Source: Planctomycetaceae bacterium (GTDB lineage Bacteria > Planctomycetota > Planctomycetia > Pirellulales > Pirellulaceae). Taken from it: a DNA stretch of 64,000 bases. Both the position numbers and the translations under genes were made by a program. Of this stretch, positions 5,991 through 24,848 are shown one piece after another. The stretch spans positions 62,001-126,000 of the forward strand of contig JAIYDN010000050.1 of assembly GCA_027487485.1 (NCBI GenBank), given 5' to 3'. The notes beneath the pieces are model-generated. The model ran no database searches. It was not told where the DNA came from and worked only from the letters and a program-made list of their open reading frames with translations. Position 1 is the stretch's first letter. Each line of letters opens with the position of its first letter.

Positions 5991-7070
5991 CTAGCCACGA
6001 ACTGCGACTCGACCGAACTCCAGGCCCATCATGATGGAATTCAAGCCGGACCCAATACCAAGCAATGCGGTCTTGGTGCCTGGTTGAAAATAGTCTTGCT
6101 GTAGCCCTGTCCCCAATGCGGTAGGTAACGCAACCGACCCCGTGTTGCCAAACACTTCAAAAGTCGAAAAATCTTTCTCTACTGGCATCGCAAGCGTTTC
6201 CAGCATTCTTTTTCGATGCGCCGATCCCACTTGATGGCAAACGGTCGAATCGATTTCCTCTCGGTTCCATGCAAGCTCCTTCAGCAACAATTCAAACGCG
6301 GTCGCCCCCGTCGCCACCCCTGCTTCCAGCAACAATTCTGAATCCGTATTCATGATAGGTTGCATGCTGCTTCCTACCGTGTCGGTATCACTTTGGCAAA
6401 GAGCATGGTGCTTGGTTCTTGCGATAGCAACGGCTCCGCGAACGGGCGCCCCTAGTCCATTGCCTCGCCCCCCGAAGACTCGCGAATCGCCGAGAAGCCA
6501 GGCACAGCTCCCTGAACCGATCGTCAAGGAAGCAAATGCAGGCTTGATCGATTGGCGAGTTAGATTCGCATCATGCGTCAATTGATCGATGGTTGCTTCC
6601 AACAAGCCACGGCAATCTTCGGTCCCTACCACGAGCCCGGCTTGAATGACGCCACTTTCAATCAATTGAGCTATCTGCACGGCCCCATTCATCACACCCA
6701 GGCACGCATTGGAAACATCGTAGACCCAGGCATTTTCTGGCAATCCGACCAAATGATGCACTCGGCATGCGGTGGCCGGCTCCAGAAACTCCCTACATAC
6801 ACTTGCATGAATCAAACATTGCACGTCGTCGGCTGCAACAGACGCTGCTTCGAGAGCTCGCTGGCAACTCAATGCGCTCATATCGCTAATGCGTGTTTTT
6901 GGTTCCCACAAACGTCGCTCTCGAATCCCGCTCATACCTTCCAAGCGTCCTTGAGGCAGCTTCAAGCGAGAATAAACTTGCTCCAAGCGATTCTCGATAT
7001 CGGTCGACGTAAGTACCAACGGTGGTAAAACATAGCCAACCGACAAAAGGGAGACGTTTTGAAATAGCAT
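5991..7070 (-). CDS. OleA-like / 3-oxoacyl-ACP synthase III family thiolase
   Basis: A thiolase-fold condensing enzyme of the KASIII superfamily. The start MLFQNVSLLS, the SVCREFLEPATA block and the ending ALLGIGSGLN resemble OleA, which performs head-to-head condensation of two fatty acyl-CoAs in long-chain olefin synthesis. Catalytic residues are present: Cys123 in DVSNACLG, His279 in CHQVGSAH and Asn309 in FGNTGS. Its 359 residues are close to OleA and KASIII lengths. No oleB, oleC or oleD gene is in the window and no fatty acid genes are adjacent, so the product is uncertain. It lies just downstream of hemDE on the same strand (23-bp gap) and may be cotranscribed. Confidence 0.75.
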   Translation of the reverse strand: MLFQNVSLLSVGYVLPPLVLTSTDIENRLEQVYSRLKLPQGRLEGMSGIRERRLWEPKTRISDMSALSCQRALEAASVAADDVQCLIHASVCREFLEPATACRVHHLVGLPENAWVYDVSNACLGVMNGAVQIAQLIESGVIQAGLVVGTEDCRGLLEATIDQLTHDANLTRQSIKPAFASLTIGSGSCAWLLGDSRVFGGRGNGLGAPVRGAVAIARTKHHALCQSDTDTVGSSMQPIMNTDSELLLEAGVATGATAFELLLKELAWNREEIDSTVCHQVGSAHRKRMLETLAMPVEKDFSTFEVFGNTGSVALPTALGTGLQQDYFQPGTKTALLGIGSGLNSIMMGLEFGRVAVRG

Positions 7071-11492: not shown

Positions 11493-12860
11493 TCAATCCG
11501 AAGCATTCATTTTATCAAGAATACGGTAGAGGCTCCGTCGGGCGATCCCTAGTTCTCGAGCGGCTTTTGCTTTGTTTCCTTGATTGCGCTTCAAGACTTC
11601 TTTGATATGAAGTTGCGAGATCGAAGCCATCGGAACCGCGTCGCCGATGTTAGGACTGGAATCTTGCAACGAATCGCCTGGAGGAATAGAAACCTGCCTC
11701 AAATCGGGCGGCAAATTCTGAAGGTCAATCGTATCACCATCCGCGAGGATCTTGGCTCGCTCCAGTGCATTTACCAATTGGCGAATGTTCCCAGGCCAAT
11801 TGCAGCGTTGAAAAAGCTCTGCCACCCCTTCCCCAATCTTCCACGCATCGCCCAGGACATGTTTTACCAGGAGCGGTATATCTTGGATTCGTTCACGCAG
11901 GGGCGGGATCGTAATCGACAGAACATTCACACGATAATAGAGATCCTCTCGAAAACGGCCCGCAGCCACCTCGCTCACAAGATCTCGATTGGTGGCCGCG
12001 ATCAATCGCACCTTGACTCGTCGCTCCTTCACCGACCCAATCCGACGCATCGAACCATCCTCGAGCACACGGAGCAGTTTCGCTTGAAGCCCGCCCGCCA
12101 GTTCGCCAAACTCGTCGATAAAAAGTGTTCCACCGTCCGCGATTTCAAACAAACCAGGCTTTGCTTCCGAGGCACCTGTAAACGCCCCTTTTTCATGACC
12201 AAACAGTTCACTCTCCAACAGAGCTTCGGGCAATGCAGCGCAATTGATCACCACCAAGGGACGGTCCGCTACCAAGCTTTGGGCGTGGATCGCTCGAGCG
12301 ACAAGTTCTTTCCCTGTGCCACTTTCGCCCAAGATAAGTACAGGTTTATCGCATGGAGCAATCCGGTCAATCAATCTTTTCACTTCCGTGATCCCAGGAG
12401 ATTGCCCGACAATGGGCTTCAGAGAATTAGTTTGGGCGAGCTGCTTTTTTAAGTGACGATTTTCTCTTTCCAGCGATTCGTTGCGTGCCGTCTTGCGGAT
12501 TAACGCATCAAGCTCGTCCAAACCAAAGGGCTTGGCAATGTAGTCCACTGCCCCGCGCTTCATGGCCTCGACCGCCGAGCCGACGTTGCCGTTGCCCGTC
12601 AGCACAATCACCTTCAGCTCCTCGTCTTCTTGACGCAGCCGAACCAACAAATCTAAGCCATTCATCCCAGGCATGTTCTGGTCGATCACGGCTAAGTGAA
12701 AATGTTGCTTGGCCTGGACCGAAATCGCCTGTTCCGCATTGGCAGCCGCCACCACTCGATATCCCTGCCGTTGGAAGAAACGACAAGCCGGTTCTAGAAA
12801 ATCCGGCTCATCATCTACCAAAAGGAGATCAAGTGGTTCGGTCAAGGGAATGGCGATCAT
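11493..12860 (-). CDS. sigma-54-dependent response regulator, NtrC family
   Basis: A transcription activator of RNA polymerase-sigma-54 with three domains. Residues 10-125 form a receiver with acidic pair D16/D17, phospho-acceptor D60 ([12 protein letters not shown]) and K110. Residues about 150-385 form the AAA+ domain: Walker A GESGTGKE (178-185), the sigma-54 contact loop GAFTGA (225-230), [12 protein letters not shown] and a [12 protein letters not shown] block. The C-terminus has a Fis-type HTH ([20 protein letters not shown]). I start at the ATG at 12860, directly ahead of the receiver. It is divergent from the cbb3 operon, which has a sigma-54 promoter, and the FixL-like kinase at the far end of that operon is the only sensor in the window. 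The pairing is inferred. Confidence 0.92.
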
Positions 12861-13177
12861 GGCACGTGCGTCTCTCAAGTCTTTTGGCTTAATCAATTCG
12901 AGTCCACTGAAATGCATGCTGCGTGCCAAGACGAGATGGCTCGCCAAGAAGTCCCAAAAGAGTTGCAATCACGCTGGCGCGTTTCAAGAAAAACAAAAGG
13001 GCCGCAAAATGAAATGGTGACCATGGTTGTAAGGCCCCCCATTCGTACGTTCCCGCGTGAGCCATTCAGGCACACTGTCGCGCTTTTGTCTCACCTCGCT
13101 CGCTTTTGCAACGCACCATTATAAACAAGGATCCCAGCTGCGACAAACTGACTCGTTTTTGCACGAAAAAACGCCTC

Positions 13178-13193
13178 TCCGGAGAAATCCGGA
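13178..13193. promoter_or_regulatory. candidate enhancer site, TCCGGA dyad
   Basis: TCCGGAGAAATCCGGA is both a direct and an inverted repeat because TCCGGA is self-complementary; the half-sites are 10 bp apart centre to centre, one helical turn. It lies about 110 bp upstream of the -24/-12 element, a usual distance for NtrC-type activators. Binding is inferred. Confidence 0.4.
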
Positions 13194-13298
13194 CCCGAGC
13201 AAACTGGCGATTGGTTAGAAAATCCCCACGCCCACCTAAAGTTCATCAATGCGGAACTGCTCGATCAACTGGTTTGGTCTTGCAGTTTCTGACTGACG

Positions 13299-13316
13299 TT
13301 GGCACAACTGTTGCGA
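13299..13316 (+). promoter_or_regulatory. sigma-54 (-24/-12) promoter of the cbb3 operon
   Basis: TTGGCAC, five bases (AACTG), then TTGC. The invariant GG is at 13301-13302 and GC at 13313-13314, the exact 12-bp register of sigma-54 promoters. Transcription would start near 13325, about 100 bases before the ccoN ATG. No FNR/FixK-type TTGAT-N4-ATCAA site was seen in 12861-13425. Confidence 0.75.
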
Positions 13317-13425
13317 AGTAAGACGAGCGAGAAGGGATTGGATCTGTAAGATTGGATTCGACTCCCCTTCCCAAGGTTTTTTATCCCCGAACCCTTCCTT
13401 ATTGAAACCACAAGATTGCATCAAG

Positions 13426-15825
13426 ATGAGTGATCTGTCTCTTGACCGTTTGCCGACGCACGACTCGAAAAACCCTGCCCCCAACTCGGAAACCATGGAG
13501 TCGTTTAGTTATGACGATGGGATAGTTCGGTTGTTTATGATTGCGACGATCGCTTGGGGTTTGATTGCGACAATCGCTGGCTTGCTGGTTGCCTTTCTGT
13601 TGGTGATGCCGGGACTGGTGGGTGGACTGGAAAGCCAAGTGGCTTCGATGCTCAGCTTCGCGCGACTTCGGCCGCTTCACACCAACGCCGCCATTTTCGC
13701 CTTCGGCGGGAACGCGATCTTCGCGGCGGTGTATTACAGCACGCAGCGTCTTTGCAAATGTCGCATGTGGAGCGACCTGCTTGGGCGTCTTCACTTCTGG
13801 GGTTGGCAGCTGATCATTGTTGCGGCCGCGGTAACTTTGCCGTTAGGTATCACTCAAAGCAAAGAGTATGCAGAACTGGAATGGCCTATCGACCTTGCGA
13901 TCGCCGTCGTGTGGCTTGGGTTCTTCGGTGGCAACTTCTTGATGACGCTATGGAACCGTCGTGAACGACATATGTATGTCGCACTTTGGTTTTACATTGC
14001 CACCATCGTGACTGTTACCGTACTGCACGTATTCAACAATCTTGTCGTACCGATTGGGTTAGGAAAAAGCTATTCAATCTATGCTGGTGTCCAAGATGCT
14101 CTAATGCAATGGTGGTACGGCCACAACGCTGTCGCGTTTTTCTTAACAACTCCTTTCCTTGGACTGATGTATTACTTCTTGCCCAAGGCGGCCGAGCGTC
14201 CAGTATTCAGCTACAAGCTTAGCATCATTCACTTTTGGTCGTTGGTGTTCATTTACATTTGGGCCGGCCCGCACCATTTGCACTACACGGCACTCCCTGA
14301 ATGGGCCAGCACGTTTGGTATGCTATTCAGCGTCATGCTGTGGATGCCCTCTTGGGGCGGGATGATCAATGGACTATTGACCCTGCGAGGCGCCTGGAAC
14401 AAGGTCACCTCCGAACCCGTCCTTAAGTTTTACGTGGTAGGACTAACCTTCTACGGGATGTCTACCTTTGAAGGACCTTTGTTATCAGTCAAGAGCATCA
14501 ACGCCTTGTCTCACTATACCGACTGGACCATCGCCCACGTTCACTCCGGCGCTTTGGGCTGGAACTGCTTTATGACGTTCGGAATGATCTACTGGTTGTT
14601 GCCTAGACTTTTTCAAACCAAGCTCTGGAGCAAGAAACTAGCAGAATGGCATTTCTGGATCGGCACGATTGGAATCCTGCTGTACATCGTTCCGATTTAC
14701 ATGGCGGGCATCACTCAAGGGCTCATGTGGCGGGCCATGGACGACCTTGGCCGATTGCAGTACCCAGAATTCATTGAATCCGTCCAGTCGAGCGTTCCAT
14801 TTTGGTGGGCCCGGATACTAGGTGGAACATTGTATGTGGCTGGCATTTTGATGCTGGCACTGAATGCTACCATGACTTGGTTGGGTCGACCCAGCAAGTA
14901 TGACGAACCTGTGTACACCGCGCCCCGGTTGAGCCGGTTCTACGAAGATTCGCCGATTCCCCAAAGCCCGTTGGCGGGCACTCCAGTACTCGATACTGCA
15001 GTACGATTAGATAAAGTCTCGGCCATGGATTGGCACCGCCGCTGGGAACGATTTCCTCTTCGATTTACTTTGCTAACGACCTTAGCGGTCATCGTGGCAA
15101 GTCTGTTCGAGATCATTCCGATGTTCTTGATCCGAAGCAACATTCCGACAATTGCCAGCGTCAAACCTTACACGCCCTTGGAGCTTGCTGGTCGAGACAT
15201 CTATGTTTCGGAAGGATGCTACAACTGCCATTCCCAGATGATTCGCCCCATGATTGCGGAGACTCAGCGATATGGTGAGTACAGCAAGGCCGGTGAATTC
15301 ATTTACGATCGGCCATTCCAGTGGGGATCGCGACGAATCGGACCCGATCTCGCTCGAGAAGGTGTCAAGAAGCAAAGTAGCTTCTGGCATTGGACTCACT
15401 TTGAGAACCCGTCCAAGTTCGTAACAGGATCGGTGATGCCAAGCTACAAGCACCTGCTAGAACAGAAGCTCAATTTTAAGGAGATCCAAAAGCGGGTGGA
15501 TGCAGCCGCATTCTTAGGTGCCCCCTATGACAAGGAGCTCACGGATGCTGAATCGATGGCTCAAAAGCAAGCCGAAGTTTTTGCAGCAGAGATCATCGCC
15601 CAAGGGGGACCTGTCTCGTACAACGGGCATTTGATCAAAGACTCGACGGCCATCGCACTCATAGCTTATGTGCAAAGGCTCGGGATCGATTTGTTTGCAG
15701 TTCCTCCGACAGCGACGCCTGCGGAAAAACCAGCCGAAGCTCCAGCGACGGAAACGCCGCCCACCGAAGCGGTTCCAGCGGCAGACGCAGTCCCGGAAAC
15801 TAAACCCACAGTGGCCAGTCGTTAA
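13426..15825 (+). CDS. ccoNO: cbb3-type cytochrome c oxidase, fused subunits I and II
   Basis: Catalytic and first cytochrome subunits of the high-affinity proton-pumping terminal oxidase in one 799-residue membrane protein. Residues 1 to about 510 are CcoN with many membrane helices and the metal ligands H85 (RPLHTNAA, low-spin heme), H233 (YGHNAVAFF, CuB), H283/H284 (GPHHLHY, CuB) and H371/H373 (IAHVHSG, hemes). From about residue 534 there is a membrane anchor and CcoO, with the c-heme site CYNCH at 598-602, SQMIRPM, and the axial Met candidate in GSVMPSYKHLL. A Pro/Ala/Glu/Thr-rich tail closes it. I choose the ATG at 13426; the TTG at 13402 is less likely. First gene of the operon. Confidence 0.93.
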   Translation: MSDLSLDRLPTHDSKNPAPNSETMESFSYDDGIVRLFMIATIAWGLIATIAGLLVAFLLVMPGLVGGLESQVASMLSFARLRPLHTNAAIFAFGGNAIFAAVYYSTQRLCKCRMWSDLLGRLHFWGWQLIIVAAAVTLPLGITQSKEYAELEWPIDLAIAVVWLGFFGGNFLMTLWNRRERHMYVALWFYIATIVTVTVLHVFNNLVVPIGLGKSYSIYAGVQDALMQWWYGHNAVAFFLTTPFLGLMYYFLPKAAERPVFSYKLSIIHFWSLVFIYIWAGPHHLHYTALPEWASTFGMLFSVMLWMPSWGGMINGLLTLRGAWNKVTSEPVLKFYVVGLTFYGMSTFEGPLLSVKSINALSHYTDWTIAHVHSGALGWNCFMTFGMIYWLLPRLFQTKLWSKKLAEWHFWIGTIGILLYIVPIYMAGITQGLMWRAMDDLGRLQYPEFIESVQSSVPFWWARILGGTLYVAGILMLALNATMTWLGRPSKYDEPVYTAPRLSRFYEDSPIPQSPLAGTPVLDTAVRLDKVSAMDWHRRWERFPLRFTLLTTLAVIVASLFEIIPMFLIRSNIPTIASVKPYTPLELAGRDIYVSEGCYNCHSQMIRPMIAETQRYGEYSKAGEFIYDRPFQWGSRRIGPDLAREGVKKQSSFWHWTHFENPSKFVTGSVMPSYKHLLEQKLNFKEIQKRVDAAAFLGAPYDKELTDAESMAQKQAEVFAAEIIAQGGPVSYNGHLIKDSTAIALIAYVQRLGIDLFAVPPTATPAEKPAEAPATETPPTEAVPAADAVPETKPTVASR

Positions 15826-15862
15826 GACTGCCGATGCGACACACAGATTTTGCCAGGAAGCC

Positions 15863-15892
15863 GAAACGCGGCTAGCGCCTGCGGCTCAATGA
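15863..15892 (+). repeat. CGCGGCTAGCGC family repeat inside the cbb3 operon, copy 2
   Basis: GAAACGCGGCTAGCGCCTGC then GGCTCAATGA fills most of the 98-bp gap between ccoNO and ccoQ. It matches 3295-3318 with one base change in the core. A palindromic GCTAGC lies at its centre, so it could fold in the mRNA. Confidence 0.6.
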
Positions 15893-15923
15893 AACAATAC
15901 TGCGGCTCACTTAGGGAAAACCC

Positions 15924-16166
15924 ATGTTAAAAGAAATCATCAGTAAACTAGATTATTCGGATTACGACGAAATAGCCTTGGTCCTCTTTGGAATGAGTTT
16001 CCTTGCCATTTGTATCGGTGCGTTCATGCTTCGCAAAGATGCGTCGCGATCCTTTGGACGCATTCCACTTGACGACCTCATTCCTGTTCCTCGAACGGCA
16101 AATTCTCAGAAAACCAACATCGAACACACAGAATCAAACCTATACGGTAACGGAGATAGACAGTAA
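15924..16166 (+). CDS. ccoQ: CcoQ/FixQ-like small subunit of cbb3 oxidase
   Basis: An 80-residue protein with one membrane helix (IALVLFGMSFLAICIGAFM) followed by a polar tail with SRSFGRIPLDD, resembling CcoQ, which stabilises the cbb3 complex. The assignment rests on length, topology and position between ccoNO and ccoP. AGGG lies about 9 bases before the ATG. Its stop overlaps the ccoP start by one base (TAATG). Confidence 0.75.
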   Translation: MLKEIISKLDYSDYDEIALVLFGMSFLAICIGAFMLRKDASRSFGRIPLDDLIPVPRTANSQKTNIEHTESNLYGNGDRQ

Positions 16167-16750
16167 TGGATCAGGGTAATTCAACGGAAGTTAAGGTTCT
16201 GCACAGCTACGACGGCATCCAAGAATATGACAATCCACTGCCCAGTTGGTGGAAGTGGGTTTTTGTCATCACCATGGCCGTGGCGCCATTTTACTTGTTG
16301 TACTTCCACATTGGTGCCCCGGGACGATCCGTGGACGAAATGTACCAAGCAAGCCTGACGGAAAATACGAAGAAGCAATATGCGGAAATCGGTGACTTGG
16401 CGGCCGATCAAGCCACCATGATCAAGTACTTGAAAGATCCGAAATGGGTTGGCGTCGGCCAATCTATTTTCAAAGCCAATTGCGTCTCTTGTCACGGCTC
16501 GGACGGCGGCGGTAACGTCGGGCCCAATCTATGCGATGACAATTACAAGCATATCAAAGCCTTGCCGGACATCATTAAGGTTCTCAACGAAGGTGTTGGA
16601 GCGGGCGCGATGCCAGCCTGGGCTACCCGCTTTTCCCACAAGAACGACATTATTTTGGTTTCCGTTTACGTCGCAAGCTTGCGAGGTTCGAAACCTGCCT
16701 CCCCCAAAGCGCCCGATGGTAGCCCCATTGCTGCGTGGCCAATCGAGTAA
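16166..16750 (+). CDS. ccoP: cbb3 oxidase subunit III, single-heme CcoP
   Basis: Membrane-anchored c-type cytochrome of the oxidase. The N-terminal CcoP signature YDGIQEYDNPLPSWW precedes one membrane helix (about residues 30-50). Only one heme site is present, CVSCH at 106-110, with downstream AMPAW as the axial Met candidate. Classical CcoP/FixP has two CxxCH sites and about 290 residues; this one has 194 residues and one site, so one cytochrome domain is missing. There is no sign of a frameshift: the frame is clean and the terminus coherent. Start codon overlaps the ccoQ stop. Confidence 0.9.
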   Translation: MDQGNSTEVKVLHSYDGIQEYDNPLPSWWKWVFVITMAVAPFYLLYFHIGAPGRSVDEMYQASLTENTKKQYAEIGDLAADQATMIKYLKDPKWVGVGQSIFKANCVSCHGSDGGGNVGPNLCDDNYKHIKALPDIIKVLNEGVGAGAMPAWATRFSHKNDIILVSVYVASLRGSKPASPKAPDGSPIAAWPIE

Positions 16751-16765
16751 GGTATAGCTACAACT

Positions 16766-18274
16766 ATGAAAGACACGCTGCCAGTTGTTTCAAACGAAAA
16801 GAAGTCCTGCGGTCGCTGTCAAGCAAATGGTGGATGTTGCAAGGAACTGCAGGATCCACAATCGCCCAAGCATGAAAGCTCCATTCTTAACGCCCCCGAA
16901 CAAGTGTTGCCGACCTTGCGGCGCGATGGCAGCCGCAATTGGCTCAGTCCGTCGCTAGCCAAGGGATTTTATTGGCAACGTCGGCGATGGTTAGCCTACG
17001 GCTTGATCGCGTTCTTTGTGACCTTACCTCATTTGCGACTGAACGGCAAACCTTACGTTTTAATCGATATTGCAAGTCGCCAGTTTACTTTTCTTGGTTA
17101 CACGTTCTACCCAACCGATACTCCTCTGGTCGCTTGCTTGGCCTTGATGGCCTTCTTTTCGATCATGTTGGTGACAGCTCTCGCGGGACGCGTTTGGTGT
17201 GGCTGGGCGTGCCCCCAGACGGTTTATCTTGAGTTCCTATTTCGTCCTATCGATCGCTTTTTTGATGGCACGCTTGGCAAGGGTGGCAAATCTCGAAGTC
17301 AGTTAGGGGGCATCCGTTCGGTGGCAAAGTTTTTAGCCTACCTGGGCTGTTCCTTGTTTCTTGCCCACACCTTCCTAAGTTACTTCGTTGGAACCGACCG
17401 ATTAGCTCAGTGGATGCAATCGTCGCCAACTCAACACCCTGTCGCCTTTTTGGTCATGGGGGGAGCGACGATCGGGCTTCTATTCAATTTCATGTATTTT
17501 CGAGAGCAATTCTGCATGATTGCTTGTCCCTATGGACGCTTCCAGTCGGTCATGCTGGACCGCAAATCCGTTATCGTCACCTACGATATCCAACGCGGAG
17601 AACCACGAAAACGCGGCAAGCGAGACAACCAACTTACGCTAGATACGCTTGGGGTGAAAACAGGAGACTGCATTGAATGTGGGCGATGTACGGCCGTTTG
17701 TCCGACGGGCATCGACATTCGCGATGGCCTTCAGCTTGAATGCATTCACTGCACTCAGTGCATCGACGCTTGCGATGATATCATGGTCAAAATCGGAAAG
17801 CCCACGGGGTTGATTCGCTACTCGAGCCAAGATGCCATGGCGGGCGTTCCTTCCAAGTGGATCCGAGCGAGAACTCTGATTTATCCGACCATTATCGGTA
17901 TCGCTTTCTTGCTGTTCTTGTTCGTGTTGTCGTACAAGTTTGCTTTCGACGCGCGCGTTGTACGAATGCCAGGTGCACCGTTTACGGTCTTCCAAGATCA
18001 GCATGTGCAAAACAACTTCCGCATTCGTTTGGTGAACCGAAGCCAAACCGACCAACAGTACTCCATCAAAACCAAGGACGAAGCGGTTGTCGCTCGTTGG
18101 AGCAATGAAGCACCGCTGACGCTAAAACCAGGCGAATCAGTCCTGGTACCTGTGGATGTTCAGTTCCCGCTTCAAGTCACCAAGGGCTCAGGTCTTTACG
18201 ACACACGAATTGAAATTGCCGACACGGCAGGAGCCGCTCGCGATATCCAAGTTCGATTACTAGGCCCCCAGTAG
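16766..18274 (+). CDS. ccoG: cbb3 oxidase assembly protein CcoG (FixG/RdxA)
   Basis: A membrane iron-sulfur protein needed for cbb3 assembly, probably as a cupric reductase. After about 70 residues there are several membrane helices, then a bis-[4Fe-4S] ferredoxin region with C302, C305, C308, C312 (CIECGRCTAVCP) and C326, C329, C332, C336 (CIHCTQCIDAC). The C-terminal 110 residues form an Ig-like periplasmic domain. The NxxFxWCGWACPQ-like motif appears as VWCGWACPQTVY. An unusual extra cluster, CGRCQANGGCC at residues 15-25, lies before the first helix and may bind metal. It is 15 bp after ccoP. Confidence 0.93.
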   Translation: MKDTLPVVSNEKKSCGRCQANGGCCKELQDPQSPKHESSILNAPEQVLPTLRRDGSRNWLSPSLAKGFYWQRRRWLAYGLIAFFVTLPHLRLNGKPYVLIDIASRQFTFLGYTFYPTDTPLVACLALMAFFSIMLVTALAGRVWCGWACPQTVYLEFLFRPIDRFFDGTLGKGGKSRSQLGGIRSVAKFLAYLGCSLFLAHTFLSYFVGTDRLAQWMQSSPTQHPVAFLVMGGATIGLLFNFMYFREQFCMIACPYGRFQSVMLDRKSVIVTYDIQRGEPRKRGKRDNQLTLDTLGVKTGDCIECGRCTAVCPTGIDIRDGLQLECIHCTQCIDACDDIMVKIGKPTGLIRYSSQDAMAGVPSKWIRARTLIYPTIIGIAFLLFLFVLSYKFAFDARVVRMPGAPFTVFQDQHVQNNFRIRLVNRSQTDQQYSIKTKDEAVVARWSNEAPLTLKPGESVLVPVDVQFPLQVTKGSGLYDTRIEIADTAGAARDIQVRLLGPQ

Positions 18275-18290
18275 TGATCAAAGTGTACCC

Positions 18291-18800
18291 ATGAACACGA
18301 CGAATTCCGTAAAACAAGAACGCAAATCTAGACGCTTTTGGGTGCTCTTGATCGTTGGCTTTTTCTCTCTCGATATCGCAATTGCTGCCATCGCCATATC
18401 AATGGCGGCGGGGGACCCATCCTTTCGATCGATTCCTGGATTTGGCGAGCGAGCGGTGGCGTGGGATCAACGCCAATCGTTGAAGGAAGCTTGGAACAAG
18501 CAAGGTTGGGCGATCGAAATCGCTCGCGCTCAGCCAAGTAAGGATGTAGTCGAAATCGTCCTGAAAGACGCTGCCGGAAATCCCGTCTCGGGCTGCACAG
18601 GCTCGGTAACCCTGTTTCACTACACCCGAGTTGCCACGCAATGGACAGCACCGCTTGAGGAAACCCAACCTGGTCTTTACCTAGCGAAAGTTGACGTTTC
18701 CAAGCCAGGCATGTGGAATTTGGAGATCGACATGCTGACTGCGAATCAAGAAAAATGCTGGTTCGAAAAGTCGTTCGATTGGCAAGGAGATTCCGAGTGA
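18291..18800 (+). CDS. fixH: FixH/CcoH family protein
   Basis: Small membrane protein of cbb3 biogenesis, thought to act with CcoI in copper delivery. One N-terminal membrane helix (FWVLLIVGFFSLDIAIAAIA) precedes a soluble beta-rich domain with the FixH features DPSF, KEAWNKQGWAIE, GSVTLFHYTR, and a C-terminal PGLYLAKVDVSKPGMWNLEI. Its length of 169 residues is normal. It sits 16 bp after ccoG, and its stop overlaps the start of the SafE-like gene. Confidence 0.85.
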   Translation: MNTTNSVKQERKSRRFWVLLIVGFFSLDIAIAAIAISMAAGDPSFRSIPGFGERAVAWDQRQSLKEAWNKQGWAIEIARAQPSKDVVEIVLKDAAGNPVSGCTGSVTLFHYTRVATQWTAPLEETQPGLYLAKVDVSKPGMWNLEIDMLTANQEKCWFEKSFDWQGDSE

Positions 18801-19696
18801 ACGCATTGGAGTTGCTGGCCGCAACACTTTTCTCATCGCTGGTTGGATCTTTGCATTGCGTCGGCATGTGCAGTCCCTTTGCCATGCTGGCGATGGGCCA
18901 AACCAGTGGTGAACGCCCTGCCGTACAACGGGCGGTTCGTCTGTCCGCCTATCACTTGGGACGATTGTCCACCTACCTGTTGATGGGAATGCTTGTCGCC
19001 GCCTTCACCTTCACCTTTCAGTTAGCAGTCGGCGATTTCGCTCGATCGCATTGGATCGGATGGGGTGTCGGAATCATCTTGATTGTGATGGGAATGGTGC
19101 GATTGTTCGAATCGATTGGCAACGCAACGAAACCGGTGACCCATTCCGCTTGGGTGTTGAGTTGGACGCGATCCATCGTGTCGCTCCGCAAACGGTACGC
19201 GTCAGGACCTGCTTGGCTTTCGTCTTTCTTGTGGGGCTTCTCCAGCACGTTCTTGCCATGTGGCTGGCTATACATTTTTGTTTTAGCCTCCGCAGCAGCT
19301 CCTTCACCGACCATGACTGTTGCCATGATGGTTGCCTTTTGGGTGGGGACTTTGCCGCTGCTGACCGCCGCAGCTTGGAGCTGGAGCCTGGTGGGACCTC
19401 AGTGGCGGTTTCTGATTCAGCCACTTGCCGCGATATGCATAATAGCTTTTGGATTTTACACTTTGATGCACCGAAGTCAGATTGATCTAAGCTCCATCGC
19501 AACGACTCCCAGCAAGCCCTCGATCCAGCAGATTCGAGATGCGATGAATGCGGGGCTACCTTGCTGTGTGGGAACTCCGTCACGCGGTTCACTGATGCCG
19601 AGAGCACCGAGTGTTGTACCTGTTACTGCTGGGGCCGGTGTTGACCCGTACGGGACTGTTGGGTACCTGGGAGGCAATGATGCAGGAAACCCTTGA
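18797..19696 (+). CDS. SafE/TauE (UreH-like) membrane protein of the cco cluster
   Basis: A 299-residue membrane protein with about six helices. The start LLAATLFSSLVGSLHCVGMC and the SFLWGFSSTFLPCGWLYIF block, a Cys-containing repeat of the same motif, identify the UreH-like branch of the sulfite exporter TauE/SafE family, which is regularly found between fixH and ccoI and probably handles copper or another metal. I start at the GTG at 18797, which overlaps the fixH stop as GTGA; upstream frame sequence lies inside fixH. The last 15-20 bases overlap ccoI. Confidence 0.8.
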   Translation: MNALELLAATLFSSLVGSLHCVGMCSPFAMLAMGQTSGERPAVQRAVRLSAYHLGRLSTYLLMGMLVAAFTFTFQLAVGDFARSHWIGWGVGIILIVMGMVRLFESIGNATKPVTHSAWVLSWTRSIVSLRKRYASGPAWLSSFLWGFSSTFLPCGWLYIFVLASAAAPSPTMTVAMMVAFWVGTLPLLTAAAWSWSLVGPQWRFLIQPLAAICIIAFGFYTLMHRSQIDLSSIATTPSKPSIQQIRDAMNAGLPCCVGTPSRGSLMPRAPSVVPVTAGAGVDPYGTVGYLGGNDAGNP

Positions 19697-22193
19697 TAAC
19701 GAGAACGTAGCCAAGCTGGGACTTCGTCCTTGTGCGCATTGTGGGCAACCGACTTTTGCAGCCGACAATGAGTCTCGCGTATTCTGTTGCAACGGGTGCA
19801 TGGGCGCCTATGCAATGATTCATGAGCTTGGGCTAGAGGACTTCTATGCACTGCGGAGGGACGCGAAGCCTTCTTTGTCGGTAGCCAGAAACGACCGCAT
19901 TGCGATCTTGAACAATTTGGAAGCGGCTGGCGTAGCGATCCATCATTACCCCGATGGCTTATGCTCAGTTCGCCTTGCGATCGACGGAGTTCATTGCGGC
20001 GCCTGCACTTGGCTGATCGAACGAGTTCAACCTACCATTCACGGGCTCAAAAGTGCCCAGGTACGAATGAGCGATTCCACCATCGAACTCATCTACGACC
20101 CAAGCCAAACAAACCCAGCATCTGTTTCACATCGCTTATCTCGAATCGGTTATGCGCTTTCGCCTTGGATCGCGAACGAAGAGGATGAGCGAGGGTTTTT
20201 AGAGAAACAGCGTTGGCATTGGACAGGTATCGCGACCGCTGCGTTTCTTGCAGCCAACGCCATGTGGATCGGGGTCGCACTGTATGCCGGTGAGTCCACG
20301 GGCATGACTTCCACTCAAGCAACTTTTCTTCGTTGGATCGGGACATCCTTAGCCATCCTGGCAACGGTTTTTCCTGGGCGCATTTTTTTCCAAACCGCAT
20401 GGCAATCGATTCGAACCCGAACGCCTCACGTGGATGTCCCCATCGCGTTATCCTTGGTGATGGGGGCAGTAGGTTCGTTGGTTGGTACCATTTCTGGGCA
20501 GGGACACGTTTATTTTGATTCCCTTGCCTCACTGATACTGCTGCTTCGTGTTGGACGTTTTATCCAATTTCGGGCAACGTATCAGTCCAGTTTATCCGTA
20601 GCAAAGCTTCTGAGATTGAATTCCGTGGTCGCGAACCGGATCGAACCCGACGGTAGCTGGACAACTCTACCATCCAGTCGGCTGAAAGTGGGTGATCGAA
20701 TCTATATCCAACCAGGGGAGCCGATTCCCGCAGATGGTTTGGTCCGGGGAATGGCAGAAGATGACCAAACGCAACTGAGCTCCATCGACATGTCCTCGCT
20801 CAATGGCGAAAGCAAGCCGATGCCAGTCCGAGCCGGAGACGTCGTTCTCAACGGAACGACCAATCTCAGCAGCCCACTCACCGTTCAGGTGACTGCGGTC
20901 GGGGACGCAACTCGCATGGGCCGGTTAATGGAACTGGTAAGGGACGCAACGACCCATCGCACCCCATGGATTATGGCCGCGGATCGAGTTGGGCAATGGT
21001 TTGTCCTGGTCGTGATTGGTCTTGCTGTTTGCACTTGGCTCTTTTGGTTTACGGTGGCCGGAAGCAACACGGCAACTCAGCACACGATGGCACTGCTGAC
21101 AATCGCTTGCCCTTGTGCGCTTGCGTTGGCCGCACCGTTGGTCCTGACGGTATCGCTGGGTCGCGCTGCGAAGAGACAGATTTGGATTCGGGATGGGAAT
21201 TGTTTGGAGAAACTTGCAACACCCGGCAAAATGTGGCTCGATAAAACAGGGACCTTAACGCACGGTCGCATGACGGTACTCGAGTGGCATGGAGACCGCG
21301 AAAACTTGGCTCATGCAGCGCGATTGGAAAGTGCATTGCGGCATCCAGTGGCTTTAGCGATCGTTGACTTTGCCACGCGTCAGAACGCAGCAAATGCAAT
21401 CGGGCTTCCAACAGAAACTGCGGCAGAAACCAAGGTTGTTGATGTGCATGTAGCCATGGGACGAGGAATACGTGGCACCATTGCTGGGCATACCCTGTGC
21501 ATCGGCTCACAGAGATGGATACTAGAAAACGGTATCGAGGTTGCTGAACCATGGCGCGGCTTGGAATCCGAGATACTCTCTCGTGGCCGAAACAGCGTTT
21601 GGTTGGCAGTGGATGGTTCGGTAGTTGGAATGTTTGGTCTGGGCGATCCCCTCCGGGCAGACACCGTCTCCACCTTGCGTTCCATTTCAAAACGAGGATG
21701 GAAACTAGCTATCCTTTCTGGTGATCGGCAAGAAATGGTCGATCGCATGGCGAAGGAACTGCAATCGGAAGGAGTTCTCTTAGAAACCGCCCTAGGGGAG
21801 CAAACGCCTGAACAAAAAATGAAAGCCATAGTCGATTGCAAAGAGCAGACCACGGGGCCTTGTGTCATGGTGGGAGATGGCGTGAACGACGCGGCCGCAC
21901 TGGCAGTTGCCGATGTTGGAATCGCAATTCGAGGGGGCAGCGAGCAGTCGCTGCATGCTGCACCCATTTACCTTGCGAACCAAAGGTTATCGTCGGTCGT
22001 TGGCCTCTTAGACACATCGAAAAGCGTTGTGCTCGGAATCAAACGCTGCTTCATCGCTTCCTTGATTTACAATTCCATCACCATCACTTTGGCAATCACT
22101 GGCCTGATACACCCGCTGATTGCGGCAATATTGATGCCTATCAGCGGGCTCACGGTACTGGCAATGGCCATGATGGTGCGCAGCAAGTATTGA
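19677..22193 (+). CDS. ccoI: copper-translocating P-type ATPase CcoI (FixI)
   Basis: P1B-type ATPase exporting copper for insertion into cbb3 oxidase. Order of features: N-terminal Cys cluster CAHCG (19-23) and CCNGC (37-41); an HMA domain with CGAC at 107-110; membrane helices; the actuator region with SLNGESKPM; the ion-binding CPC at 478-480; phosphorylation D522 in DKTGTLT; HPVALAI; and GDGVNDAAAL. The extra zinc-ribbon-like Cys cluster is typical for CcoI/FixI. The start is one of the paired ATGs at 19677/19680, overlapping the SafE-like gene by about 20 bases; the open frame further upstream lies in that gene. Confidence 0.93.
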   Translation: MMQETLDNENVAKLGLRPCAHCGQPTFAADNESRVFCCNGCMGAYAMIHELGLEDFYALRRDAKPSLSVARNDRIAILNNLEAAGVAIHHYPDGLCSVRLAIDGVHCGACTWLIERVQPTIHGLKSAQVRMSDSTIELIYDPSQTNPASVSHRLSRIGYALSPWIANEEDERGFLEKQRWHWTGIATAAFLAANAMWIGVALYAGESTGMTSTQATFLRWIGTSLAILATVFPGRIFFQTAWQSIRTRTPHVDVPIALSLVMGAVGSLVGTISGQGHVYFDSLASLILLLRVGRFIQFRATYQSSLSVAKLLRLNSVVANRIEPDGSWTTLPSSRLKVGDRIYIQPGEPIPADGLVRGMAEDDQTQLSSIDMSSLNGESKPMPVRAGDVVLNGTTNLSSPLTVQVTAVGDATRMGRLMELVRDATTHRTPWIMAADRVGQWFVLVVIGLAVCTWLFWFTVAGSNTATQHTMALLTIACPCALALAAPLVLTVSLGRAAKRQIWIRDGNCLEKLATPGKMWLDKTGTLTHGRMTVLEWHGDRENLAHAARLESALRHPVALAIVDFATRQNAANAIGLPTETAAETKVVDVHVAMGRGIRGTIAGHTLCIGSQRWILENGIEVAEPWRGLESEILSRGRNSVWLAVDGSVVGMFGLGDPLRADTVSTLRSISKRGWKLAILSGDRQEMVDRMAKELQSEGVLLETALGEQTPEQKMKAIVDCKEQTTGPCVMVGDGVNDAAALAVADVGIAIRGGSEQSLHAAPIYLANQRLSSVVGLLDTSKSVVLGIKRCFIASLIYNSITITLAITGLIHPLIAAILMPISGLTVLAMAMMVRSKY

Positions 22194-22235
22194 AATAACA
22201 TCAACATTCACTTTCCCCAAGAAACTTGGCTCACC

Positions 22236-22382
22236 ATGAGTGTACTTTACGTAGCTTTGCCCGTCGCGTTGCTTCTCGGCGGATCTGCGCTCATTGCTTG
22301 TTTGCTGTGTATACGCAATGGTCAATACGACGACCTGGAAAGTCCTGCAATGCGAATGCTGAATGATGAGGTCAAAAAGTGA
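22236..22382 (+). CDS. ccoS: cbb3 oxidase maturation protein CcoS
   Basis: A 48-residue membrane peptide beginning MSVLYVALPVALLLGGSALI and continuing with CxRNGQYDDLESPAMRM. The Gly-Gln-Tyr-Asp-Asp-Leu-Glu-x-Pro motif after a single helix is diagnostic of CcoS, required for insertion of heme b and CuB. It sits in its standard place right after ccoI. The stop TGA overlaps the GTG start of the next gene by four bases. Confidence 0.92.
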   Translation: MSVLYVALPVALLLGGSALIACLLCIRNGQYDDLESPAMRMLNDEVKK

Positions 22383-23725
22383 CTGCACCATTCTCTCACG
22401 CTCTTGGTTTCTTGGCCCGCACACTGGCTTGTGTGCTGTGGTTCGCAGGCTGGGTAAATACGGCTTGGTCCGAGGATGAATTTGAGAATGCACCGATATC
22501 TTATTACGATTCCCAGTCCTATGACCCTGTTGCCAAGCTGCTTCAGCAGATGAACTCGGGCGAAAAGGTGTTGGTCGCCGATTCCAAAGGAGACTATCTT
22601 CCGTCGGTTTTGCAAGCGTTAGACATCCCTGTCTCGTCGCAATGCTTGGTCTTTTCCAAAACCAGCTTGCAACTTTCGCATATTGGACCAAGCACTCCGC
22701 GAGCAATTTACTTCAATGATTCGGTTTACTTGGGAGTTGTCCAGGGCAGCAACGTCGTGGAACTAACAGCCATCGATTCTCTGTTGGGATGCGTGTTTTA
22801 CACCTTGGAGCGCGAGCGAGAAACGTTCCAAATCATACGCGACCGAGGCCAATGCCTGTCGTGTCATGCGACTTCGCGTACGGAACGGGTGCCAGGCGTT
22901 TTAGTGCGTTCCATTTACTCGGACAAATCAGGTCGGCCTCGTTCGGGCTCGACTTCCTACGTCACGGATTACCGAAGTCCTTTTCAACAACGCTGGGGAG
23001 GCTGGTATGTCACGGGGACACACGGCAATATGACGCATTTGGGCAATGCATTTGCCCTCGATCGCCAAGACCCTCAAAAAGTGGATACAGAATTCAGTCT
23101 CAATTCGGAAAAGCTACCCGCAAATGTTCAAAGCGATGCTTACTTGCAAGAGTCCAGCGACATCGTCGCCTTGATGGTGCTGGAGCATCAGACTCGATTG
23201 CATAATCTGATCACTCGGGCCAATTACGAAACTCGCCAAGCCATCTACCTTGATCAAGCCATGAACGAGGCGCTTGGCCGCGACAAGACTTTTCGCACGG
23301 AGTCCACAGGGCGTCGGATCGCGAGCGTCGGCGAGGCGCTCGTAGCAGGGTTGCTGTTTGCAGACGAGTTTGCTTTAGAATCCGAAGTGAAAGGTACTTC
23401 TACCTTCACCCAGGAATTTAGCCAGCGCGGACCGATCGACTCCCAAGGTCGCTCTTTTTACCAGCTCGACCTGAAGAAGCGCCTGATGCGATACCCTTGC
23501 AGCTACTTGATTTTGTCGTCGCATTTCGATGGATTGCCAGAAGCAGTCATGGTCTACATCCAAAACCGAATGCATGGGATTTTGACGGCGAACGGCGAGC
23601 TCCCAAAAGGGGTCCGAATTGAACCGGACGAGCGAACGATCATTCGTGAAATGCTGGACGAAATGAAGCCCGGTTGGTTATTACCCCTCGATCACGAGAA
23701 TCACCATGTTGAACCAAGAAAATGA
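22379..23725 (+). CDS. exported monoheme protein of unknown function in the cbb3 operon
   Basis: A 448-residue secreted protein with one c-heme site. The signal peptide runs to about residue 30 (AWSEDE). CLSCH is at 159-163, followed by an unusual conserved-looking block: VPGVLVRSIYSDKSGRP, then WGGWYVTGTHGNMTHLGN. The rest is soluble and helical, with LEHQTRLHNLITRANYE. I recall similar unannotated proteins in planctomycetes but cannot name a family. GTG start overlapping ccoS (GTGA), and the 3' end overlaps the FixL-like kinase by about 20 bases, so it is translationally coupled in an oxygen-respiration operon; a periplasmic electron-transfer or redox-sensing role is possible but unproven. 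Confidence 0.75.
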   Translation: MTAPFSHALGFLARTLACVLWFAGWVNTAWSEDEFENAPISYYDSQSYDPVAKLLQQMNSGEKVLVADSKGDYLPSVLQALDIPVSSQCLVFSKTSLQLSHIGPSTPRAIYFNDSVYLGVVQGSNVVELTAIDSLLGCVFYTLERERETFQIIRDRGQCLSCHATSRTERVPGVLVRSIYSDKSGRPRSGSTSYVTDYRSPFQQRWGGWYVTGTHGNMTHLGNAFALDRQDPQKVDTEFSLNSEKLPANVQSDAYLQESSDIVALMVLEHQTRLHNLITRANYETRQAIYLDQAMNEALGRDKTFRTESTGRRIASVGEALVAGLLFADEFALESEVKGTSTFTQEFSQRGPIDSQGRSFYQLDLKKRLMRYPCSYLILSSHFDGLPEAVMVYIQNRMHGILTANGELPKGVRIEPDERTIIREMLDEMKPGWLLPLDHENHHVEPRK

Positions 23726-24848
23726 GTTTGACGACCATTCGCGGGGACTTCAAGATTCAGCTATTTTGGCTGCGATCTTGGATACGGCTGTCGATGCGAT
23801 TGTGACCATCAACTCCCAAGGGGTGGTGCTGCACGTGAATCATGCATTTCAAAAAATGTTCGGCTTTCTTCCCGCGGAAGTGATCGGCCAAAACGTTTCG
23901 ATGCTGATGCCCGAGCCAGATCGATCCGCACACGATGGTTACCTTCATCGATACCATTCCACGCGAGAGGCAAGCATTATCGGAATCGGTCGCCAAGTGA
24001 TGGGCAAACGTAAAAACGGTTCGATGATTCCTGTGGATCTTGCGGTTAGCGAAGTCAAAATCGGAGCCCAAGTTCTATACACGGGCATCCTTCGTGACAT
24101 GACCGAACGCCGACAAGTCGAAGATGACTTACGCCAGGCCCAGATGCAGCTGATTCAAAGCGAGCGACTAGCTGCGATTGGCCAAATGATGACTGGCATC
24201 GCTCACGAAAGCCGAAACGCCTTGCAAAGATCCCGAGCGTGCTTGGACATGTTGGACCTGGATTTAGAATCAGCTCCAGAACAACAAGATTTGGTGCGGC
24301 GTTCCCGATCGGCACTGGTAGAACTGCAGACTCTACACGAAGAAGTTCGAAACTACGCGGCGCCCATTCAGCTGGATCGGTCATATCAAAGCATCTACAA
24401 ATTGTGCTTGGAAGCTTGGAACCACTTGGAGCCGATTTGGCGAGAAACGAACGTCAAAATCGCAATGCATTTTGAGTCGGTCGCCGAGGTCTTTTGCGAT
24501 CCAAATCGACTGGTTCAAGTATTCAGAAACATCTTCGAAAACTCGCTCGCCGTGGCACCTAATGACAGCCAAATCGTGGTGGCTACCAGACAGGTGCAAA
24601 GAACGTCAGGACTGTATGTTCAAGTGAACGTCACCGACCAAGGGCCAGGACTTAATGAAGAACAATGCACTCACATCTTTGACCCGTTTTATACGACAAA
24701 GACCAAAGGAACAGGCTTGGGGATGGCAATATGCCAGCGCATCATCACTGCCCACCACGGCACGATCGCGGTTGGGAATTCGGATAGAAGTGACTTAGTT
24801 CCAACCGGGGCTACGATTACGATTGAACTTCCCAGCAAAACTGCCTAA
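23706..24848 (+). CDS. FixL-like heme-PAS sensor histidine kinase with NtrB-type H-box
   Basis: Candidate oxygen sensor. Residues about 18-135 form one PAS domain closely resembling the FixL heme domain: GQNVSMLMPEPDRSAHDGYL and SIIGIGRQVMGKRKNGSMIP. The residue matching the heme ligand His200 of Bradyrhizobium FixL is H76 and the distal Arg220 is R96; the position matching His214 is S90. The kinase core follows: phospho-His H167 in GIAHESRNALQ, an N box (VFRNIFENSL) and G boxes (DQGPGL, GTGLGMAI). The H-box His-Glu-x-Arg-Asn form is that of NtrB-type kinases, unlike HELNQPL of FixL. No membrane segments, so cytoplasmic. Last gene of the cbb3 operon. Confidence 0.88.
   Translation: MLNQENEFDDHSRGLQDSAILAAILDTAVDAIVTINSQGVVLHVNHAFQKMFGFLPAEVIGQNVSMLMPEPDRSAHDGYLHRYHSTREASIIGIGRQVMGKRKNGSMIPVDLAVSEVKIGAQVLYTGILRDMTERRQVEDDLRQAQMQLIQSERLAAIGQMMTGIAHESRNALQRSRACLDMLDLDLESAPEQQDLVRRSRSALVELQTLHEEVRNYAAPIQLDRSYQSIYKLCLEAWNHLEPIWRETNVKIAMHFESVAEVFCDPNRLVQVFRNIFENSLAVAPNDSQIVVATRQVQRTSGLYVQVNVTDQGPGLNEEQCTHIFDPFYTTKTKGTGLGMAICQRIITAHHGTIAVGNSDRSDLVPTGATITIELPSKTA

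Follow-up and report, generated by a model that had tools for sequence, protein, structure and literature searches.

Control of a cbb3 oxidase by an oxygen-sensing kinase, through sigma-54 and an NtrC-type regulator, has a precedent in the Myxococcus system NmpRSTU (PMC11841059). According to the published account, the protoglobin kinase NmpU, together with NmpS and NmpT, feeds the NtrC-like regulator NmpR, which binds GCGCA-N5-TGCGC, whose regulon includes a cbb3 operon with a P-type ATPase, and whose target mxan_4236 rises in hypoxia (PMC11841059). Homologues of nmpSTU are recorded for Planctomyces sp. SH-PL14, with a synteny said to be common to Planctomycetes, in PMC6211767, and a fixL annotation together with a cbb3 oxidase is mentioned for a metagenome bin in the section of PMC9083452 on Ignavibacteria and Phycisphaerae. 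Here we analyse a cbb3 locus of a Pirellula-like planctomycete, located in a 64,000-nucleotide stretch (the window) of Planctomycetaceae bacterium assembly GCA_027487485.1 (7.49 Mb, 99.98% complete), in which the cbb3 operon starts opposite a divergent NtrC-type response regulator gene, REG, and ends with a histidine kinase gene, KIN.

With NmpRSTU, as published, the locus shares an NtrC-like activator of sigma-54 promoters whose presumed signal source is a heme-based oxygen sensor, a regulon with a cbb3 oxidase and P-type ATPase operon, apparent control by the regulator of its own system, and a palindromic operator, here a candidate, upstream of a sigma-54 site; REG was likened to NmpR by this published description. 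The same account gives Nmp a protoglobin kinase, a receiver hybrid kinase and a likely phosphosink arranged in an inverted relay, whereas one heme-PAS kinase is seen here, and the operators differ (GCGCA-N5-TGCGC for Nmp, the candidate TGTGC-N6/7-GCACA for REG). KIN contains no NmpU-type globin, although no search was made for a globin kinase elsewhere in the genome, and no NmpS-type receiver; receiver-PAS kinases with a KIN-like core occur at two other loci (L139 and L242). The FixL-FixJ-FixK system of Bradyrhizobium and other rhizobia resembles the locus in the FixL-type heme-PAS domain and its placement with a cbb3 operon, but the KIN core is only 28-29% identical to FixL, REG is of the NtrC type with an AAA+ domain while FixJ is LuxR-type, no FixK/FNR site was found between REG and ccoNO, and the genome has no CRP/FNR member above cut-off. 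Globin-coupled histidine kinases such as AfGcHK are comparable in that protoglobin kinases adjoin REG orthologues in other families, whereas the input domain of KIN is a PAS and not a globin. A literature search, which covered few subscription papers, returned no account of cbb3 control by a FixL-type sensor paired with a sigma-54 regulator, and none of this system in Pirellula. The sigma-54 principle itself is already known.

All four parts that a preliminary description had placed in one stretch were confirmed in the window. REG (11493-12860, minus strand) combines, by Pfam, a receiver, an AAA+ Sigma54_activat domain with GAFTGA and a Fis-type helix-turn-helix (HTH); a -24/-12 site faces ccoNO (13426-15825, plus strand; PRK14485 above cut-off), which encodes fused cbb3 subunits I and II; the operon holds ccoN, ccoO, ccoP, ccoG, ccoH, ccoI and ccoS; and KIN (23706-24848, plus strand) is its final gene. 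RpoN is encoded in the genome (one Sigma54_DBD match, E 6e-61). Comparison with relatives makes the ATG at 12860 the probable start of REG; the alternative TTG at 12968 probably lies upstream of the true start, since alignments to most relatives in the genus begin only near residue 31-37.

We consider it quite probable that these parts form a hypoxia-activated sigma-54 circuit dedicated to the cbb3 operon. At low oxygen, by analogy with FixL, the deoxy heme-PAS domain would allow KIN to autophosphorylate; KIN would phosphorylate REG, which would oligomerise, bind a TGTGC-N6/7-GCACA dyad between divergent -24/-12 promoters and drive sigma-54 RNA polymerase at both, towards ccoNOQPGHIS and KIN on one side and towards REG on the other. 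Oxidase, assembly factors, sensor and regulator would then rise together in a positive feedback. Sequence and comparison support the parts themselves, their inheritance as a set, the conservation of the promoters, the pairing of KIN with REG and the candidate operator; heme and O2 binding, activity in the deoxy state, phosphotransfer, sigma-54 dependence and binding of REG to the dyad are steps that we infer. The circuit is a concrete and testable proposal for oxygen control of high-affinity respiration in a genome with no CRP/FNR member above cut-off, and it makes checkable predictions for Pirellula, namely one operator and two promoters.

Promoters, candidate operator and co-inheritance

The predicted sigma-54 promoter facing ccoNO (TTGGCACAACTGTTGC, 13299-13314, plus strand) lies about 110 bp before the ccoNO ATG, and its GG and GC are separated by the canonical ten bases. 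The -24/-12 site claimed earlier is present and exact, and it draws its weight from the relatives, among which the TGGCAC/TTGC elements and the GG-N10-GC spacing are conserved where the activator is found. Counting sites that retain GG and GC and deviate at no more than one further position, we detected one before ccoNO in all 12 genomes that have REG beside ccoNO and readable upstream DNA (nine exact, three with one mismatch), versus 0 of the 14 genomes whose ccoNO has no neighbouring REG; the latter comprise ten genus genomes without a REG orthologue and four genomes outside the genus (G032, G036, G042 and G059) with a REG orthologue elsewhere. Three genomes (G002, G007, G033) have too little upstream DNA for this count, G004 offers 275 bp with no site and was left uncounted, and G001 and G025 were left out. 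Sites with two mismatches were likewise absent within 400 bp of ccoNO in all 14 genomes without a neighbouring REG. On the opposite strand of the same 300 bp before ccoNO the count was 0/12, and 100 Markov shuffles gave a mean of 0.01 of 12 with a maximum of 1; the expectation per 400 bp is 0.009 sites from shuffles, or 0.03 from the overall density in the loci with the true sites counted in.

The comparison set consisted of 60 relatives, 27 of them in the genus, with REG orthologues taken at an identity of at least 74% and KIN orthologues of at least 58%. A REG orthologue is present in 13/27 genus genomes and a KIN orthologue in 12 of those 13; in the thirteenth (G026), which has no KIN match, the contig stops about 2.2 kb past ccoNO. 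Kinase, regulator and promoter thus do co-occur in relatives, the synteny check which the preliminary description had set for itself. Two further loci (L166 and L167), found through a scan of named genomes and unused in forming the hypothesis, begin with KIN (plus), followed by REG (minus) and then ccoNO (plus); KIN is the immediate neighbour of REG, and an exact TGGCAC-N5-TTGC precedes REG.

One genus genome, G021, is nested among the REG genomes in the ccoNO tree, where G020 and G023 are its sisters (100/99). The ccoNO frame is almost full-length, the match covering residues 8-792 of 807 and stops being confined to the last ten matched residues, while REG and KIN persist as remnants at the expected places (REG residues 198-255 and KIN residues 281-376, at 6213-6386 and 16124-16408 of L131), and ccoG and the CxxCH protein are likewise damaged. 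The upstream site reads TTGGCACGAACGTTGT (TGGCAC-N5-TTGT), so that the GC of the -12 element is lost. The decay has affected sensor, regulator and promoter alike, in this single lineage.

These observations bear on the alternative that cbb3 transcription depends on a housekeeping promoter, or on another one independent of sigma-54, while the sigma-54 parts regulate something else. In its favour, ccoNO matches are kept in all 14 genus genomes without a REG orthologue, many genomes carry a GCGACA-type dyad before ccoNO whether or not they have REG, and the four outside genomes with REG elsewhere have no site before ccoNO. The joint occurrence of promoter, REG and KIN and their joint decay in G021 speak against it, as does what was found of standard regulators. 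Between 12861 and 13425 there is no FNR/FixK box (with up to two mismatches to TTGATN4ATCAA or up to one to TTGAN6TCAA), in agreement with the earlier reading of this region, and a crude scan of the same interval gave no sigma-70-like pair facing ccoNO. Genome-wide, the CRP/FNR-family HTH yielded no match to PF00325 and two weak matches to PF13545 below the curated cut-off; no family member being above cut-off, FNR/FixK control is unlikely, and with no site upstream either it was rejected. We regard a non-sigma-54 promoter as quite unlikely, and control of the cco operon by sigma-54 and REG as highly probable.

REG has a -24/-12 site of its own (TTGGCACGCAGCATGCAT, 12912-12929, minus strand, one mismatch), which was recognised by pattern scan and conservation in relatives. 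With up to two mismatches allowed, such a site precedes REG in 10/10 genus loci read (four with at most one), the upstreams having been read in 10 of the 13 genus REG genomes. Outside the genus it occurs within 210 bp of REG at 12 of 18 loci (ten with at most one mismatch). The control on the other strand gave 1/10 in the genus and 1/18 outside, and shuffle means were 0.5/10 and 1.0/18. The 18 outside REG orthologues are loci among the matches listed; not included are L143 of G036, with an adjacent GAF-PAS kinase, and extra copies of G032 and G036, namely L145 (adjacent heme-PAS kinase) and L246-L248 (no kinase seen). The feedback proposed earlier, in which the sensor is induced together with the oxidase, gains strength from this second promoter, as it is conserved across families.

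Between the two -24/-12 sites sits the dyad GTGAGC-N7-GCACAC (13057-13075), a candidate REG operator. At least 10 of its 12 positions are matched in 8 of 12 REG genomes versus 0 of 14 others. Genome-wide, the sole match to GTGNGC-N7-GCACAC is the window dyad itself, the source of the pattern (control 1), so the search of the own genome returned no further target and is not independent evidence. The N7 form is weak in REG upstreams outside the genus, where a de novo search for 5-base palindromes in the 18 upstreams placed TGTGC-N6-GCACA on top, level with the inner form GTGCG-N4-CGCAC (10/18 each; maxima of 5-6 in six shuffles). The half-site TGTGC/GCACA is common to REG upstreams in the genus and outside, with a spacing of N7 versus N6.

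Another dyad, of the GCGACA/TGTCGC type, lies at 13140-13154 and overlaps a sigma-70-like hexamer pair facing REG (13146-13118). Dyads of this type are seen upstream of ccoNO in many genus genomes, with the form TTGCTTCAATCTGTCGCGG in seven genomes without REG, once with an altered last base. Their occurrence in both REG and non-REG genomes suggests that these have a further regulator or element in common. The sequence before ccoNO in G042 and G059 resembles, by eye, the end of an Rrf2-type regulator gene, which may point to another control of ccoNO there.

KIN and the sensors beside REG orthologues

KIN consists of one PAS, a HisKA and a HATPase domain. The PAS matches the solved BjFixL PAS structures (E about 1e-31; about 44% identity to 1dp6), and H76 and R96, which we take to be the positions of BjFixL H200 and R220, are invariant in 9/9 aligned genus kinases (nine of the 12 genus kinases were aligned). 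The FixL loop IIG(I/V)GR is conserved in KIN-type kinases. KIN thus carries the proximal His and the FG-loop Arg of a heme-PAS domain, as judged from its sequence, and its PAS very probably binds heme.

Outside the PAS the likeness to FixL ends. Identity between the KIN core and the FixL cores of three Bradyrhizobium is 28-29%; it is 41-45%, with 45% for a protoglobin kinase, to the cores of planctomycete kinases with protoglobin (L140, L142, L146), GAF-PAS (L143, L144) and receiver-PAS (L139, L242) inputs, most of which sit beside REG orthologues. KIN scores 218.8 bits on the NCBIfam FixL equivalog, against a cut-off of 850. Its AHESRNALQR motif was found only in planctomycete kinases among the loci scanned, and the closest KIN-like kinases among named records come from Pirellula, Planctomycetaceae and unclassified Planctomycetota, the nearest being that of uncultured Pirellula sp. 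Loclat_bin-07264 (97% identity). Judging from these alignments, KIN is not FixL; the better description is a FixL-type input domain joined to the core of a REG-partner kinase. Of the earlier claim of a FixL-like heme-PAS kinase as the last gene, the position and the PAS therefore stand and the kinase core does not. The suggestion that oxygen control was rewired through sigma-54 fares similarly: co-occurrence, the presence of RpoN and the absence of CRP/FNR members above cut-off agree with it, but the kinase is not a rewired FixL, and the principle is precedented by NmpRSTU. No LuxR-type FixJ was seen among the KIN neighbours scanned in the window, a genome-wide FixJ search not having been made, and the regulator neighbouring KIN-type kinases is of the NtrC type in L166, L167 and other families.

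In the window about 11 kb separate KIN from REG, and a first look at the genome gave 63 kinase candidates, so that REG and the promoter might form a circuit in which another kinase is the partner and KIN signals elsewhere. This we judge very unlikely: KIN adjoins REG directly in L166 and L167, KIN-like kinases neighbour REG orthologues in other families, and both REG and KIN are reduced to remnants in G021. We hold with great confidence that KIN is the partner kinase of REG.

Beyond the genus, a kinase neighbours REG at 16 of the 18 outside loci: 11 are protoglobin kinases, three heme-PAS kinases (IIGxGR), one a receiver-PAS and one a GAF-PAS kinase, while at the other two no kinase was seen within the stretch read. 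Three of the eleven globin domains are assigned by a local profile alone; one of the protoglobin kinases beside REG matches the solved globin-coupled kinase domain 5ohe. At five of the 18 loci a second type of cbb3 operon is nearby. In a draw of 392 genomes from the phylum, 17 besides our own matched REG at E 1e-130, one of them (G048) being shared with the sample above. A match to a KIN-like kinase occurs in 14 of these, no further than 5 kb from REG in nine and no further than 10 kb in 11; four candidates per genome were scored, so that absences mean little.

The nature of the signal is less firm than the wiring. As heme-PAS domains can bind several gases and only sequence is available, a gas circuit of the proposed form might be tuned to nitric oxide (NO), carbon monoxide (CO) or redox state instead of oxygen. 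The conserved H76, R96 and FixL loop argue against this, as do the protoglobin kinases beside 11/18 REG orthologues, with their one match to a solved globin-coupled domain, and the fact that the target is an oxidase. Such a tuning appears unlikely, and oxygen, with activation at low oxygen, is by analogy with FixL the likely signal.

Kinases with FixL-like sensors are also found outside this setting. In the Bradyrhizobium loci listed, a short response regulator comes after the FixL-like kinase, in most cases with cbb3 genes nearby, and in two Acidobacteriota loci (L177 and L205) FixL-like kinases are convergent with NtrC-type regulators, their core differing from that of KIN. A FixL-like kinase/NtrC pair close to the Acidobacteriota ones occurs in L202, a metagenome-assembled genome titled Cyanobacteria that is possibly mislabelled or contaminated. 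In G037 (L152, 11293-13141) a LuxR-type regulator follows a heme-PAS kinase that is FixL-like and has a HisKA_3 core, near ccoN of a cbb3 operon; by their domains the two look like a FixLJ-like pair in a planctomycete.

Points against the proposed circuit and possible sensor exchange

Several observations weigh against a circuit dedicated to the cbb3 operon, or against its generality. The single 13299 site is not significant in its own genome alone: exact TGGCAC-N5-TTGC occurs 25 times genome-wide versus 26 times for the reversed control pattern, which is chance level, and judging the promoter from this genome alone was rejected for that reason. In the ccoNO tree, built from 28 of 30 ccoNO loci plus L166 and L167 (the partial G002 and G033 left out), the presence or absence of REG requires two changes, so that 12/12 versus 0/14 does not amount to 26 independent observations. 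G032, G036, G042 and G059 have a REG orthologue elsewhere, yet no -24/-12 site before ccoNO, and in three of them a heme-PAS kinase adjoins a copy of REG; REG is not paired with this cbb3 operon as a general rule. At the five outside loci with globin kinase, REG and cbb3 operon, a -24/-12 site lies near the presumed first operon gene in two (L147, one mismatch; L150, exact) and is absent in three (L148, L149, L244). The ccoNO site of L166 and L167 (TGGTAT-N5-TTGC, about 75 bp before the open frame) has two mismatches and misses the one-mismatch threshold, and REG reads GSFTGA in L166, GAFTGA in L167. The candidate operator was first noticed by eye in REG genomes, and by the pattern used it matches in only eight of 12 and differs in spacing outside the genus. 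A PAS of KIN's sequence could respond to NO or CO. Finally, eight of the 11 protoglobin kinases beside REG have cores unlike that of KIN, so that another kinase, or a partner in a relay, takes part there.

The last point also bears on how the sensors changed. Heme sensors of two unrelated kinds are found next to a single regulator lineage, which makes sensor exchange in two-component systems testable. The REG tree is poorly resolved at depth and places the long-branch paralogues L238 and L239 inside the family; it was used for tip groups and for the need of at least two changes of sensor type. A broader reading would be that the oxygen sensor of a class-wide planctomycete sigma-54 hypoxia regulator was exchanged more than once between protoglobin and FixL-type PAS, partly by domain swaps on one core and partly by swaps of whole kinases, and that in Pirellula a globin relay of the Nmp kind collapsed into a single heme-PAS kinase inside its target oxidase operon. 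We put this forward tentatively, as somewhat less probable than its opposite, the shared core in only three of 11 protoglobin kinases having lowered its chances. The eight unlike globin cores were left out of the kinase-core tree, as were the three Bradyrhizobium FixL, owing to a mismatch to the H-box pattern; by BLAST those eight are 20-37% identical to KIN over 52-236 residues.

Remaining genes of the operon

All genes from ccoNO to KIN are on the plus strand. ccoNO is followed by a small open reading frame in the ccoQ position (15924-16166), assigned by position with no family match, and by ccoP (16166-16750), which matches FixP_N and Cytochrome_CBB3 and falls below the TIGR00782 cut-off. 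CcoP is usually a di-heme protein; that of the window has one CxxCH. Next come ccoG (16766-18274, TIGR02745 above cut-off), ccoH (FixH, 18291-18800, PF05751), a gene for a DsbD_2-type membrane protein (18713-19696, PF13386) and ccoI for a copper-type P-type ATPase (19611-22193, family matches), the starts of the latter two being uncertain. ccoS (22236-22382) is above cut-off for FixS PF03597 and TIGR00847 and was too short for the list of open reading frames. Between ccoS and KIN lies a gene (22379-23725) whose product contains one CxxCH and matched no family in Pfam or NCBIfam; KIN overlaps this gene, which also precedes KIN in the genus loci read that far, and the gene after KIN is convergent.

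Four genus loci without REG and KIN (L132-L135, from G018, G010, G006 and G013) have ccoNO-Q-P only, with no adjoining match to ccoGHIS, the CxxCH protein or KIN. Two others, L153 of G023 and L154 of G020, are second ccoNO-ccoP copies about 48-50% identical to the window ccoNO, with no REG or KIN match in the stretch read.

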